Below, piece after piece: positions 26,269-44,960 of a stretch of 64,000 nucleotides of DNA. The notes beneath the pieces are model-generated. The model did not search any database. It saw only the letters and a program-made list of their open reading frames with translations, and was not told where the DNA came from. This stretch comes from Hufsiella ginkgonis (lineage in GTDB: Bacteria > Bacteroidota > Bacteroidia > Sphingobacteriales > Sphingobacteriaceae). The DNA is taken from assembly GCF_009834915.1 (NCBI RefSeq), contig NZ_WVHS01000001.1, forward strand, positions 1,240,001 through 1,304,000, given 5' to 3'. The stretch's first letter is position 1. The number at the start of each line of letters is the position of its first letter. Made by a program: the position numbers and the translations under genes.

Positions 26269-26284
26269 CGTTCCACGTGGAACA
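26269..26284. other. parS-like site 1 (ParB binding)
   Basis: CGTTCCACGTGGAACA matches the parS palindrome TGTTnCACGTGnAACA at every specified position except the first base. It lies 8 bp after the ABC-F stop codon and 8 bp before site 2. Confidence 0.75.
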
Positions 26285-26292
26285 TAATAACG

Positions 26293-26308
26293 TGTTCCAC
26301 GTGGAACA
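26293..26308. other. parS site 2 (ParB binding), perfect palindrome at the mnmG start
   Basis: TGTTCCACGTGGAACA is a perfect 16-bp palindrome and a full match to the widely conserved ParB-binding consensus. Its last base is the A of the mnmG ATG. parS sites cluster near replication origins, so this pair is a strong position marker. Confidence 0.85.
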
Positions 26309-28185
26309 TGGATAGAAATACCATGTTTGACATATATGATGTAATTGTTGTGGGAGCCGGACATGCCGGTTGCGAAGCTGCTGCTGCTGCTGGGAACCTG
26401 GGTTCGAAAGTGTTATTGATAACCATGAATATGGGGACAATTGCACAAATGAGTTGTAATCCCGCTATGGGTGGTGTAGCGAAAGGGCAAATTATACGTG
26501 AGATCGATGCTATGGGCGGATATTCAGGTATTATTGCAGACAAAACGAGTCTCCAATTTCGCATGTTGAACCGATCAAAAGGCCCGGCTATGTGGAGTCC
26601 GAGAGCTCAAAATGATCGCATGCGGTTTGCTGAAGAATGGCGTCTCACATTGGAAAGTATTTCCAATGTTGATATGTGGCAGGATACCGTGATCTCCATC
26701 CTTACCGACGGCGACCGGGTGATCGGCGTTAAAACATCATTAGGTATAGAGATCAAGGCCAAAGCAGTAGTATTAACAAATGGAACATTTCTTAACGGTG
26801 TGATCCATATTGGTGAGAAAAAATTTGGGGGCGGACGTACCGCAGAAAAAGCTGCAACAGGTTTAACAGAACAGTTATTAACACTGGGTTTCGAAGCAGG
26901 GAGAATGAAAACGGGTACTCCCCCACGCGTAGATGGTCGTAGCCTCGATTATACTAAAATGGAAGAACAATGGGGAGATGAACAACGCGGACGTTTCTCT
27001 TATACCGATGTAGACCTTCCAAAAGAACAAAGGTGCTGTTGGATCACTTACACAAATACGGCAGTACATGAAACTTTAAAAGAAGGCTTCGAAAAATCAC
27101 CGATGTTTACCGGGAGAATAAAAGGACTTGGACCAAGATATTGCCCTTCTATCGAAGACAAAATAAACCGTTTTGCCGAACGCGACAGGCACCAGATCTT
27201 TGTAGAACCGGAAGGATGGAATACCGTTGAAATCTATGTGAATGGGTTCTCTACCTCTTTACCTGAAGATGTACAATACCGGGCGCTAACCAAAATTCCC
27301 GGCTTCGAAAAGGCCAGGATGTTTCGTCCCGGCTACGCTATCGAATATGACTTTTTCCCACCAACCCAACTGTACCTGACATTGGAAACTAAACTGGTAA
27401 AAAACCTTTTCTTCGCCGGGCAAATTAACGGAACCACCGGCTACGAAGAAGCTGCAAGCCAAGGCTTCCTTGCAGGTATTAATGCCCATCAAAAAGTAAA
27501 CGATCTCCATGAGCTCATTATGAAACGCTCAGAATCGTATATCGGCGTACTGGTGGATGACCTAGTAACTAAGGGCACGGAGGAACCTTACCGCATGTTT
27601 ACTTCACGTGCCGAACACCGGCTATTGCTAAGACAGGATAACGCAGACGTTCGACTCTCTCCAATCGGGCATGAATTAGGATTAATATCCGATGAGCGGC
27701 TGACTAAAGTTAAGGATAAAGTTCGCGGCTCAGCTGATATCGTAGCTTTTACTAAAGCACATTCCATAGATCCGGCATCTATTAACAGTTACCTGGAAAC
27801 CCTGGACACTTCAGCCCTGTCGCAAAACATCAAATTATTTCAACTCATTTCAAGACCCCAAGTAGGTTTAAACGAATTGAGCCAGGCATATCCCGCGCTC
27901 GCTGCACATCTTCAAAACTTTTCACCGGAAACAATTGAAGATGCCGAAATCGCTATTAAGTATGAAAGTTACTTTGAAAAAGAACACGAAATAGTAAGTA
28001 AGATGAAAAGGCTCGAAGACCGGGAAATAAAGCAGGAATTTAACTACCATTCGTTAGTATCCTTGTCGAAAGAAGCCCGGGAAAAATTGATGAAAATTAA
28101 ACCCAGGACTTTAGGGCAGGCGTCGAGAATTTCGGGAGTATCACCATCTGATATTTCCGTTTTAATGGTACATCTCACCCGGTAA
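26308..28185 (+). CDS. mnmG: tRNA uridine 5-carboxymethylaminomethyl modification enzyme, FAD subunit
   Basis: A 625-residue MnmG (GidA). The FAD-binding motif is [16 protein letters not shown] (about 14-29). Further blocks are [40 protein letters not shown] and [18 protein letters not shown]. With MnmE it installs the cmnm5 group on wobble uridine of several tRNAs. Start is ATG 26308 or the ATG at 26323 (MFDIYDV), which is closer to the usual family start. If 26323 is used, parS site 2 lies wholly upstream of the coding region. The gene is AT-richer than the window average. Confidence 0.95.
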
Positions 28186-30664: not shown

Positions 30665-31657
30665 TTACAAGCCCAGCCTGGCCGATATCTCCAGCATCCT
30701 TTCAATCGGTACCCGTGCACGTTCTATAATATCCATTGGCACAGTAACTTCCGGCAATTCATTCTTCATACACAGGTAAAGCTTCTCGAGCGTATTCCGC
30801 TTCATATGCGGGCAATCATTACAAGCACATAAATTGTTCGGCGGCGCCGGGATAAACACCTTACCGGGATTAGCCTTCTCCATCTGGTGAAGTATACCGC
30901 TTTCTGTAGCTACGATGAACTCCTTTGCCGGGTGATCCATCGTGTACTTCAGCAAGCCGGTGGTGGAGCCGATATAATCCGCCATCTTTAATATCACTTC
31001 CTCGCATTCGGGATGAGCGATAAATTTCGCCTCCGGATGCCGTTCCTTCAGCTTTACGATCCTTTGCTGCGAGAATATTTCATGCACCATACACGCGCCG
31101 TTCCACAATACCAGGTCGCGCCCGGTTTTCCGGGCAACATAAGCGCCCAGGTTGCGATCGGGACCAAAAATGATCTTCTGCTCCTTCGGAAGGCTTTCTA
31201 CAATTTGTACCGCATTCGAGGAAGTACAAACGATATCGCTCAAAGCCTTCAGCTCTGCGGTACAATTTACGTAGGTGATAACGAGATGATCCGGGTAGTT
31301 CTCTTTAAACTTTGCAAAGAGGTGCGGCGGGCAGCTGTCTGACAATGAACACCCGGCCTTAACATCAGGCAACAGCACCTTTTTGTAAGGTGAGAGTATC
31401 TTGGCGGTTTCGGCCATGAAATGAACGCCGGCGAAAACGATAATGTCTGCATCAGTTTTCGCCGCTTCCTGCGAAAGCCCGAGACTATCGCCAATGTAAT
31501 CGGCAATATCCTGTATATCAGGCTCTTGATAATAGTGCGCAAGAACAACGGCATTCTTTTCCCTTTTTAATTTCTCAATCTCATCAAACAGATCCAGGCT
31601 TGGATCGATGGGTTCCTCAACAAAACCCTTGATATTTATTTCTGCTAAAGTATCCAT
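30665..31657 (-). CDS. nadA: Quinolinate synthase
   Basis: A 330-residue NadA that condenses iminoaspartate with dihydroxyacetone phosphate to quinolinate using a [4Fe-4S] cluster. Family blocks are [46 protein letters not shown] and the C-terminal [14 protein letters not shown] chose the ATG at 31657 (MDTLAEIN); the frame upstream begins with a TTG. It is divergent from nadB across the AT-rich 412-bp gap, so both steps of NAD ring synthesis flank that gap. Confidence 0.96.
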
Positions 31658-32069
31658 TTCCCAACGATTCAATAATTACAATATCTTTTAAAATATCCTT
31701 TATTAAGAGTTATTAGCGTGTTAGTAATGTGAAGAAAGTGACTGTTTAAGTTTTGGTTTTTTTGTTTTGAGGAATTTATCCACAGGAAATTAACATTTTC
31801 GTTAGGTTATCGCATTGATTACCAATTCTTTTTTATTTGCAACAAAAAACTATAAAACTTATATGTGCAATGAATGTTCGGGTGTAAAACGTTAATATCT
31901 TTGTTTTTCGTGCTCAAAACTAATGTATAAAACGTGGTAAAAAGGGAGAAAAACGGTACTTATACACATCTTGACATTTTATTAAACTTCTATCAATACA
32001 AAATTAACATCTTTATACCGGTTATTAACAGTGGCGCGGTAAGCTGAATGTTATATTATATATTTTTCC
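31658..32069. other. AT-rich non-coding gap with DnaA boxes (candidate replication origin)
   Basis: These 412 bp between divergent nadA and nadB contain no gene. They are markedly AT-rich and hold two perfect DnaA boxes, TTATCCACA (31776-31784) and TTATACACA (31960-31968). A one-mismatch box, TTATTAACA, is at 32022-32030. Long A/T runs lie in between and could act as the unwinding element. parS lies 5.5 kb away. Absence of dnaA and the lack of a clear gene-orientation switch argue for caution; promoters for both nad genes must also lie here. Confidence 0.45.
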
Positions 32070-33656
32070 ATGGAGCATGTTGATTTCTTAGTTGTAGGTT
32101 CGGGAATAGCCGGACTTAATTTTGCCCTTAAGGCAGCAAAACATGGTAAGGTACTGATAGTTACAAAAGCAAATGCCGATGAATCTAACACCAAGTACGC
32201 GCAGGGGGGCGTAGCTGTCGTTGTGGATAAAGAAGATTCTTTCGACAAACACATCGAAGATACCCTGGTGGCGGGCGATGGTTTATGTGATAAACACGTA
32301 GTAAGCATCGTTGTGGAAGAGGGCCCGGCCCGCATCCAGGAGATCATCGACTACGGTACCAATTTCGACATGACCAACCAGGGGCTTTTCGACCTGGCAA
32401 AAGAAGGCGGTCACTCAGAACACAGAGTGCTTCATTATAAAGACATTACAGGTTTCGAGATAGAGCGTGCCTTGCTGGAACAGATCAACAGCGATCCTAA
32501 TATCTCCATTCTCACCCACTATTTTGCCATAGAGCTGATCACGCAGCACCATTTAGGAAAATTTGTGGATAAAAGTTCCGGGGACATTACCTGTTATGGT
32601 ATTTATGCCCTTAATACACGGAATAACTCTGTGGAAAAGATACTGTCGCGGGTAACCGTCATGGCTACCGGGGGCGCCGGGCATATTTATTCGAACACCA
32701 CCAATCCCATTATAGCCACGGGCGACGGGATCGCAATGGTTTACCGCGCTAAGGGAAAAGTGCGCAATATGGAATTTATCCAGTTTCATCCTACCGCACT
32801 TTATAACCCGGGCGAATACCCTTCTTTCCTGATATCCGAAGCGGTAAGAGGTTTTGGCGGCGTGTTAAAAAGACGCAACGGCGATGAATTTATGCATTTA
32901 TATGATGAACGGCTTTCCCTTGCCCCCAGGGATATCGTTGCACGTGCCATAGATTCGGAAATGAAAATTTCCGGCGATGATTTCGTTTACCTTGACATCC
33001 GGCACCGTTCGAAGAAAGATATCCTTTCTCATTTTCCTAATATTTATGCAAAATGCCTCAGCATCGGGATTGATATGACCCGCGATATGATCCCCGTTAC
33101 GCCAGCCGCTCATTATATGTGCGGAGGCATTATGGTGGATGAGCATGGAAGATCGTCTATCAGGAGAATGTACGCTTGTGGAGAATGTTCTTCCACCGGC
33201 TTGCATGGAGCAAACAGGCTCGCTTCCAATTCCTTACTGGAAGCTACCGTTTTTGCACACCGCATTTTCGAAGATGCCGTTATGGCATTTAAAGATTATG
33301 AGATCCCGTCTGATATACCCGAATGGGATGAAACAGATACCCAACTGCTGAATGAAGATATCCTGGTTACCCATAACCTGCGCGAAACACAAAAGATCAT
33401 GAGCGACTATGTGGGTATTGTACGGTCAGATTTCAGGCTCGAACGCGCCATGCGGCGATTGGGTCTTTTATATGATGAAACTGAATCCTTTTATAAAAAG
33501 ACCAAGTTATCTGTAAAGCTTTGCGAACTGCGGAATGTGATCCAGACAGCTTACATTGTAATAAAATCCGCGATGTTAAGAAAAGAAAGCAGGGGATTGC
33601 ATTTTACCACCGATTATCCTGATCACCGGGAGGACCCGAAGGATACGATATTTTAA
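32070..33656 (+). CDS. nadB: L-aspartate oxidase
   Basis: A 528-residue flavoprotein of the succinate dehydrogenase/fumarate reductase type. FAD motif VVGSGIAGLNFALKAA near the N-terminus. Further blocks are YAQGGVAVV, GGHSEHRVLHYKDITG, QFHPTALY and the active-site region HYMCGGIMVDEHGRSS, followed by YACGECSSTGLHGANRLASNS. It oxidises aspartate to iminoaspartate for NadA. ATG at 32070. Confidence 0.96.
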   Translation: MEHVDFLVVGSGIAGLNFALKAAKHGKVLIVTKANADESNTKYAQGGVAVVVDKEDSFDKHIEDTLVAGDGLCDKHVVSIVVEEGPARIQEIIDYGTNFDMTNQGLFDLAKEGGHSEHRVLHYKDITGFEIERALLEQINSDPNISILTHYFAIELITQHHLGKFVDKSSGDITCYGIYALNTRNNSVEKILSRVTVMATGGAGHIYSNTTNPIIATGDGIAMVYRAKGKVRNMEFIQFHPTALYNPGEYPSFLISEAVRGFGGVLKRRNGDEFMHLYDERLSLAPRDIVARAIDSEMKISGDDFVYLDIRHRSKKDILSHFPNIYAKCLSIGIDMTRDMIPVTPAAHYMCGGIMVDEHGRSSIRRMYACGECSSTGLHGANRLASNSLLEATVFAHRIFEDAVMAFKDYEIPSDIPEWDETDTQLLNEDILVTHNLRETQKIMSDYVGIVRSDFRLERAMRRLGLLYDETESFYKKTKLSVKLCELRNVIQTAYIVIKSAMLRKESRGLHFTTDYPDHREDPKDTIF

Positions 33657-43842: not shown

Positions 43843-43850
43843 TAAATTTG
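43843..43850 (+). promoter_or_regulatory. -7 promoter element of mrp
   Basis: TAAATTTG matches TAnnTTTG and ends 18 nt before the mrp ATG, giving a short leader. The -33 region has only a weak TTC/TTTA match. Confidence 0.4.
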
Positions 43851-43868
43851 CGTTTTCACTCATATAAA

Positions 43869-44960
43869 ATGATCACAAAGGAACAGGTTTTGCAGGCGCT
43901 GAGTCACGTGGAAGAACCGGATTTAAAGAAAGACCTGGTTACGCTAAACATGATCGAGGGGATAGAGATCAACGGGAACAACATCCGCTTCTCGGTTATT
44001 TTAACTACCCCGGCCTGCCCGTTAAAGGCTATGATAGAAAATGCCTGCCGCAACGCCATCGCATACTTCGTGAGCAAAGAGGCGGAGGTCATCATTAATA
44101 TGACTTCGCGCGTTACCACCCGGGCCAACGCTACGCTGCCGAATATCCGGAATATCATTATCGTTTCTTCCGGGAAGGGCGGGGTAGGGAAATCGACGGT
44201 TTCTGCAAACCTGGCATTGGGACTTCAAATGACCGGGGCGTCGGTAGGTTTGATCGATGCCGATATTTACGGGCCGTCTATCCCCACCATGTTTGGCCTC
44301 GAAGGGGAGCGCCCGTTATCCGTACAGGGGCCTGACGGTAAAGCGCGCATCCTCCCCATCGAGCGTTTCGGGTTAAAACTGTTGTCCATCGGTTTCTTTA
44401 CCGACCCGGAGCAGCCGGTTCCCTGGCGGGGGCCGATGGTTTCTACTGCCGTGAAACAACTTTTTAACGATGCCGATTGGGGCGAACTGGACTACCTGGT
44501 GGTCGACCTTCCTCCGGGCACGGGCGACATCCACATCACGCTTACACAAACGTACCCCATCGCGGGAGCGATCATCGTAACAACACCGCAAAAAGTAGCC
44601 TTGTCCGACGTGCGTAAAGGGATCGGGATGTTTATGATGAACGCCATTAATATCCCGGTACTGGGCATCGTAGAAAACATGTCGTACTTTACTCCTGCAG
44701 AATTGCCCGGCAACAAGTATTATATTTTCGGAAGCGGTGGCGGGCAAACGCTGGCCCAACGGTATGATGTGCCGTTCCTGGGCGAGATCCCGCTGGTTAA
44801 AAGCATCAGCGATGCGGGCGATGCAGGCCGTCCCGTGATCATGGAAGCGGGCAACCCGATGGCCGAAGCATTTAAAGCGCTCGCCGCGAAGGTGGCCCAG
44901 CAGGTGTCGATCCGGAACTTGGAAGTGCGGCAGATGAATCCGGCGCCGGCGGCGATATAA
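43869..44960 (+). CDS. mrp: Mrp/ApbC-type Fe-S cluster carrier P-loop ATPase
   Basis: A 363-residue protein. The N-terminal MIP18/DUF59 domain (about 1-85) precedes a ParA-like ATPase with the deviant Walker A SGKGGVGKST (101-110), DADIYGPSIPTMFG and DLPPGTGDIHITLTQ. It carries and delivers [4Fe-4S] clusters. I chose the ATG at 43869 rather than a TTG 7 codons upstream because the latter overlaps the region just after the promoter box. NifU-domain gene follows 54 nt downstream, fitting a shared Fe-S role. Confidence 0.94.
   Translation: MITKEQVLQALSHVEEPDLKKDLVTLNMIEGIEINGNNIRFSVILTTPACPLKAMIENACRNAIAYFVSKEAEVIINMTSRVTTRANATLPNIRNIIIVSSGKGGVGKSTVSANLALGLQMTGASVGLIDADIYGPSIPTMFGLEGERPLSVQGPDGKARILPIERFGLKLLSIGFFTDPEQPVPWRGPMVSTAVKQLFNDADWGELDYLVVDLPPGTGDIHITLTQTYPIAGAIIVTTPQKVALSDVRKGIGMFMMNAINIPVLGIVENMSYFTPAELPGNKYYIFGSGGGQTLAQRYDVPFLGEIPLVKSISDAGDAGRPVIMEAGNPMAEAFKALAAKVAQQVSIRNLEVRQMNPAPAAI

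Follow-up and report, generated by a model that had tools for sequence, protein, structure and literature searches.

The nadA-nadB gap

The window analysed here is a stretch of 64,000 nucleotides (C1:1240001-1304000) of a draft Sphingobacteriaceae genome of 5.21 Mb in 25 contigs. Its own contig is 1.59 Mb long, and the locus of interest lies at 1.272 Mb. At this locus, nadA and a gene for a nadB-like FAD protein diverge from a common gap, which is bordered by the nadA ATG (minus strand) at one end and the nadB ATG (plus strand) at the other (Table 1). The FAD protein is probably L-aspartate oxidase, as its place beside nadA suggests. An Rfam scan of the window returned one tRNA and nothing else.

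Our sequence scan agrees with the original prediction that this AT-rich gap holds two perfect DnaA boxes in the same orientation and a third box with one mismatch. We numbered five sites and followed them through an alignment of 26 distinct gaps of 390-420 bp from relatives and the window. All 26 rows have ACA as the last three bases of sites I, II and IV. At site II, the relatives mostly carry TTACTAACA, TTATTAACA or TTTTCAACA. Site III, perfect in the window, ranks 304 of 343 in conservation, and six of the 26 rows (the window included) are one mismatch from TTATCCACA there. Site IV is the best conserved stretch of the gap; it has three to five mismatches to TTATCCACA and is therefore no recognisable DnaA box. 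Sites resembling site V are present in most aligned rows with small shifts in spacing, and the eight of 26 rows that could be scored without alignment gaps all end in ACA.

Table 1. Features at and around the nadA-nadB gap (window positions)
Feature	Position	Strand	Remarks
Two parS-like 16-mers just before mnmG	26269..26308	none	pattern scan with TGTTNCACGTGNAACA
mnmG (gidA)	26308..28185	+	neighbour of the predicted origin in the available text of two Flavobacteriaceae papers (PMC12843772, PMC11278836)
nadA, quinolinate synthase	30665..31657	-	PF02445
Candidate oriC, AT-rich nadA-nadB gap	31658..32069	none	412 bp, G+C 0.28
Least stable 50-100 bp of gap, candidate unwinding element	31666..31766	none	stability scan
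Site I, conserved box-like, TTACTAACA	31719..31727	-	2-5 mismatches to TTATCCACA across rows
Site II, perfect DnaA box TTATCCACA	31776..31784	+	0-3 mismatches across rows
Site III, perfect TTATnCACA box TTATACACA	31960..31968	+	position not conserved by alignment
Site IV, AAATTAACATCTTT	32001..32014	+	3-5 mismatches to TTATCCACA
Site V, TTATTAACA	32022..32030	+	one mismatch to TTATnCACA; 21 bp after site IV
nadB-like FAD protein	32070..33656	+	probably L-aspartate oxidase from its place beside nadA

Two further copies of TTATCCACA lie inside nadB on the minus strand (32222-32230 and 32564-32572). On inspection of all 88 genomic positions by eye, those at 31776, 32222 and 32564 are the only case of three copies falling within 800 bp. 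The copies inside nadB fall on V-V-D-K and F-V-D-K codons; TGTGGATAA was present in 26 of 44 VVDK loci compared with GTGGATAA in 30 of 91 VD[KN] elsewhere, a difference too weak to call.

DNA stability

To assess how readily this DNA would open, we scanned a sample of 854,936 bases (~855 kb) of the genome's own DNA for stability. The least stable 400 bp of the sample was 31631-32030, comprising most of the gap and 27 bp of nadA; the AT-rich, easily opened DNA typical of a bacterial oriC is thus present at the 400-bp scale. Within the gap, the candidate unwinding element ranked 22 of 85,289 at 50 bp and 93 of 85,084 at 100 bp. DnaA-trio repeats beside boxes are a feature of the Bacillus-type basal unwinding system. 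In a crude scan for runs of this motif, written as (TA[AG])3, we found 7 in the family gaps compared with 10.7 in shuffles, and none in the window gap.

parS-like sites and mnmG

The original prediction placed a parS about 5.5 kb from the gap, and a scan with TGTTNCACGTGNAACA found a parS-like pair at 5.35 kb, with one copy carrying one mismatch (26269-26284) and the other perfect (26293-26308). In the whole 5.21-Mb genome only one other place lies within one mismatch of the pattern, and the pair before mnmG are the best copies. The further remark that genes on the left point toward the gap holds for the immediate ones, mnmG and the Big_5 gene. In G007, G011, G017 and G028, four of the five relatives searched whole, the nearer copy of a parS-like pair was found 5.7-6.1 kb away from where nadB starts; the whole-genome search of the fifth, G016, found no such site near the gap. 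Of 20 named family loci extending beyond mnmG, 19 have a parS match before it, and L070 lacks one. A parS-like site near the candidate origin, as in ParB-parS partition loci, is therefore the rule here, with G016 and L070 as exceptions. Elsewhere in the window, a Pfam "ParA" match (43848-44960) is of the NUBPL/Mrp iron-sulfur kind (PF10609 and PF01883) and no partition ParA.

Conservation across the family

The nearest named nadB relatives of this genome are a Sphingobacteriaceae MAG, Daejeonella, Mucilaginibacter and Pedobacter. Membership of Sphingobacteriaceae was checked for Mucilaginibacter, Daejeonella and Albibacterium, and the remaining named relatives, Pedobacter included, we take to belong to the same family. 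Among 53 close loci (L022-L074), 51 have a divergent nadA-nadB gap, and in the other two (L042 and L060) the sequence ahead of nadB is just 473 and 237 bp long. Together with the window this gave 52 gaps, 49 of them distinct when identical gaps are counted once, with some loci coming from the same organism. Gap length ranged from 393 to 611 bp and was 407-414 bp in 23 of the 52; the gap of G007 measures 411 bp.

We counted boxes in the 49 distinct gaps against shuffled gaps, a comparison that ignores kinship although related gap sequences are not independent. The strict box TTATNCACA occurred 29 times compared with 2.1 in shuffles (reversed control, 5 vs 2.5), and TTATNMACA 79 times compared with 9.3. 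The relaxed form TTWYNMACA occurred 178 times compared with 35.2, and its reversed control was also raised (50 vs 34.4, maximum 47). A strict box is present in 19 of the 49 gaps and TTATNMACA in 40. The DnaA-box cluster of a bacterial oriC is thus found in the window gap, as two strict boxes and one TTATTAACA, and 30 of the 49 family gaps contain no strict box. The gap of G016 has three strict boxes, whereas G028 has none, with two TTATTAACA and one TTTTAAACA, and G007 has none, with TTTTCCACA and TTTTTAACA. In the last two gaps, therefore, degenerate boxes would either be enough by themselves or need assistance from some other factor, and this choice is the most interesting point about them. 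The 13-mer of site IV, AATTAACATCTTT, occurs once in the window's own 5.2-Mb genome and in none of the 38 genomes searched more than twice; nine of its 28 places lie in the gap, corresponding to nine of 24 family genomes.

Gene order around the gap differs in the window. Compared with 49 of the 50 relatives that have an LbH match, the window carries the block from nadA through the gap to nadB (30665-33656) in reverse at the same site, while the flanks are otherwise unchanged, with mnmG, Big_5, LbH and tRNA-Gly on one side and the SDF, YkuD and AIRS genes on the other. LbH lies on the nadB side in those 49 family loci and on the nadA side in L071. L050 has a gap identical to that of L071 and an AIRS gene next to nadB, and its block is probably inverted likewise. 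Block orientation was not readable in L022 and L057, which stand outside the LbH count. An origin firing forks both ways should tolerate such an inversion harmlessly. In G007 (G007:C1:956374-957959), nadB matches in two pieces (residues 1-48 and 43-528) whose starts are not in one frame, a possible frameshift.

GC skew and the position of dnaA

Skew was calculated from sampled 20-kb stretches of G028 (n = 40), G007 (n = 40) and G016 (n = 20) and from 43 pieces of the window's own contig. In G028 (complete, 4.40 Mb), a fit that assumes the terminus to lie opposite the origin put the latter at 320 kb, and the gap lies at 317.3 kb, rank 1 of 221 grid positions by GC and keto skew alike. All 14 samples in the stretch that begins 222 kb before the record start of this genome and ends at 320 kb had negative raw GC skew, and between 320 and 900 kb it was positive in 11 of 12. 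The gap of G007 ranked 3 of 217 by GC skew, 44 kb off the best place, and 8 by keto skew. On the window's own contig, the GC change point fell at 1.24-1.36 Mb (best 1.36), and none of 2000 permutations was as good; keto skew preferred 1.28-1.36 Mb and also allowed 1.04-1.06 Mb (14 of 2000 permutations as good). Skew on this contig is weak, with means of -0.012 and +0.025, and resolves to ~100 kb. In G016, the gap ranked 109 of 197 (GC) and 156 of 197 (keto), and the skew looks scrambled. A negative-to-positive change of GC skew at the site was thus found in three of four genomes, with G016 against. The original prediction had staked itself on a skew minimum close to the gap; on these sampled stretches it held up in the window's own contig, G028 and G007, and it failed in G016.

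A dnaA neighbourhood, common at bacterial origins and not universal, is missing here, as the original prediction had remarked: the only DnaA-family match in the genome lies at C1:8393-8878, ~1.26 Mb from the gap. It reads as a protein of 475 aa with GGRDHSTV in its C-terminal part, which we take to correspond to GGRDHTTV of E. coli. The distance from dnaA to the gap is 0.73 Mb in G028 and 11 kb in G016. The latter locus (G016:C1, L152) thus combines a close dnaA and a gap with three strict boxes with the misfit in skew and no parS found nearby.

We considered the dnaA locus itself as the origin and set it aside, since in G028, whose dnaA lies at 1047 kb, skew shows no change there: the samples flanking it, at 880 and 1100 kb, are both positive. 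This skew argument comes from G028; in the window's genome, contig C1 begins 8.4 kb before the dnaA match. Boxes disfavour the dnaA locus as well: among the 100 of 228 matches listed, there are two strict boxes in the first 20 kb of C1 and none within 2.9 kb of the dnaA match, the nearest being ~3.0 kb away.

Box frequency in the genome

The original prediction called two perfect boxes in so short a stretch unlikely by chance and proposed that box density be checked elsewhere. Rarity was borne out, with ~0.04 strict boxes expected per shuffled family gap (2.1 per 49 gaps); uniqueness was not, for 55 of the 41,927 overlapping 412-bp windows from the sampled own DNA, a count that takes in the gap itself, had two strict boxes. 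TTATCCACA is found at 88 places genome-wide compared with 22 for the reversed pattern. Because TTATCCACA is common in this genome, box count by itself is insufficient as proof. Two further 412-bp stretches of the sampled own DNA likewise contain at least three TTATNMACA. Clusters of near-boxes at C1 ~320.7 kb and ~724.5 kb were rejected, having a G+C of 0.46-0.50 and lying away from the skew change.

A candidate origin unlinked to dnaA

From sequence, this Sphingobacteriaceae bacterium very probably uses the nadA-nadB gap as its chromosomal origin (oriC), as many of its relatives seem to do. The original proposal is thereby supported by skew in the own contig, G028 and G007, and by conservation in the family, where the gap recurs with its boxes and a parS nearby. 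We read it as a DnaA-type oriC unlinked to dnaA because of its boxes, low stability, the skew, conservation, linkage to parS and the absence of these elements in distant loci (see below). Several observations weigh against this reading: the misfit of G016, the lack of strict boxes in the gaps of G028 and G007, whose skew speaks most clearly for the origin, the distance of sites I and IV from TTATCCACA, the raised reversed control of the relaxed box and the weak skew of the own contig. In such an origin, DnaA made from the gene 1.26 Mb away would bind an array of strict and degenerate boxes, and the AT-rich DNA would open, perhaps on the nadA side. Helicase would then be loaded and two forks would depart in opposite directions. 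ParB, presumed to bind the parS pair 5 kb from the gap, would afterwards segregate the newly copied origins.

A stronger form of this reading, which we regard as doubtful, is that the family origin is built mainly on the fixed degenerate sites (TTACTAACA, TTATTAACA, and AAATTAACATCTTT with a TTATTAACA 21 bp beyond it) and not on canonical boxes, with AATTAACATCTTT read by an origin binder other than DnaA or by a DnaA of relaxed code.

Alternative explanations

The conserved sites might instead be promoter or operator parts of nadA and nadB under a regulator of the NAD pathway, with the origin itself within tens of kilobases, for example at parS and mnmG. Skew cannot separate places 5 kb apart, and sites I, IV and V lie 40-70 bp before a start codon, where promoter parts are possible, with site I reading toward nadA and sites IV and V toward nadB. 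The motif TANNTTTG, which we take to be the Bacteroidota promoter motif, is somewhat more frequent in the gaps than in shuffles (76 vs 54.3, maximum 68; 60 of the 76 lie on the minus strand), with three in the window gap. Spaced -33/-7 promoter pairs, on the other hand, show no excess (5 vs 8.8), strict DnaA boxes are 14-fold enriched in the family gaps, and the low counts of AATTAACATCTTT in each genome imply that it is no genome-wide promoter motif.

To determine whether these elements accompany nadB or its neighbourhood, we compared the family with 56 distant nadB loci (L075-L130, 58-65% identity) from Chitinophaga, Sediminibacterium, Taibaiella, Dyadobacter and others, or from organisms named only as Bacteroidetes. 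Just one of the 56 contains nadA (L126, on the same strand as nadB), and parS was found in none of the 56, several of which are short. In the 200 bp before nadB, strict boxes numbered 0 in the 55 distant loci with sufficient sequence compared with 16 in 50 distinct family loci, and relaxed plus-strand boxes numbered 2 compared with 47. AATTAACATCTTT within two mismatches was present in 0 of 55 distant loci compared with 32 of 50 family loci (25 within one), and none of 53 shuffled family sequences came within one mismatch of it. The distant loci compared are less AT-rich before nadB (G+C 0.40 vs 0.27 in the family), which leaves the promoter explanation some room. Because the distant loci lack the elements and the family shuffles lack the 13-mer, the elements go with the neighbourhood and not with nadB as such, although they may form a family-specific nad operator. 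On balance, a purely nad-regulatory role for the sites is improbable.

It is far less plausible still that DnaA binds the gap as a gene regulator or titration site without starting replication. The boxes do lie between two divergent genes and TTATCCACA is common in the genome, but the origin fitted from skew coincides with the locus in G028 and lies close to it in G007. The gap also keeps a similar length in many genera, and its DNA is of low stability. That the gap is simply an AT-rich spacer with accidental boxes is hardly credible: paired strict boxes do recur in the 55 overlapping own windows, but enrichment over 49 distinct gaps (kinship ignored), fixed positions and the agreement with skew all argue against it.

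Comparison with known origins

The classical oriC, as in Escherichia coli and Bacillus subtilis, has TTATnCACA boxes, AT-rich DNA of low stability and a change of skew, with parS nearby in Bacillus. The nadA-nadB gap shares its TTATnCACA boxes, low-stability DNA, skew change and parS vicinity with this type, and differs from it in having no dnaA nearby, many degenerate boxes (TTATTAACA, TTACTAACA) and no excess of DnaA-trios. Like the sites of ParB-parS origin segregation, the pair before mnmG matches TGTTCCACGTGGAACA, represents the genome's best copies and lies near the skew change.

In Flavobacteriaceae, the available text on Mariniflexile litorale (PMC11278836) and Algorimicrobium (PMC12843772) gives an Ori-Finder origin at mnmG that agrees with GC skew. 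That of PMC11278836 places the origin away from dnaA, although in its figure legend the labels of oriC and ter are swapped, and one of the two papers states that the dnaA position mismatched GC skew. As far as these texts go, our candidate resembles both predictions in lying near mnmG and being consistent with skew, and that of PMC11278836 in being unlinked to dnaA. Unlike those computed calls, the box-bearing gap here is nadA-nadB, 3.5-5.4 kb from mnmG, and it is conserved in many relatives.

Our literature search recognised no paper placing an origin at nadA-nadB, and a database prediction may exist. The putative oriC is an object of a familiar kind whose location, to judge from that search, is new, and its support, drawn from sequence, is good. 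The new details are its placement in many genera, the fixed degenerate sites and, in the window, the reversal of nadA, gap and nadB in place.

Records of circular genomes are often rotated so that they begin at dnaA. Should the origin here lie elsewhere, any replichore map, gene dosage or read-depth estimate of growth rate that takes dnaA as the origin would be wrong for Sphingobacteriaceae. A short, conserved origin would also be a tool for building replicating plasmids for relatives of Pedobacter and Mucilaginibacter, and would let one test which degenerate boxes the DnaA of Bacteroidota reads.
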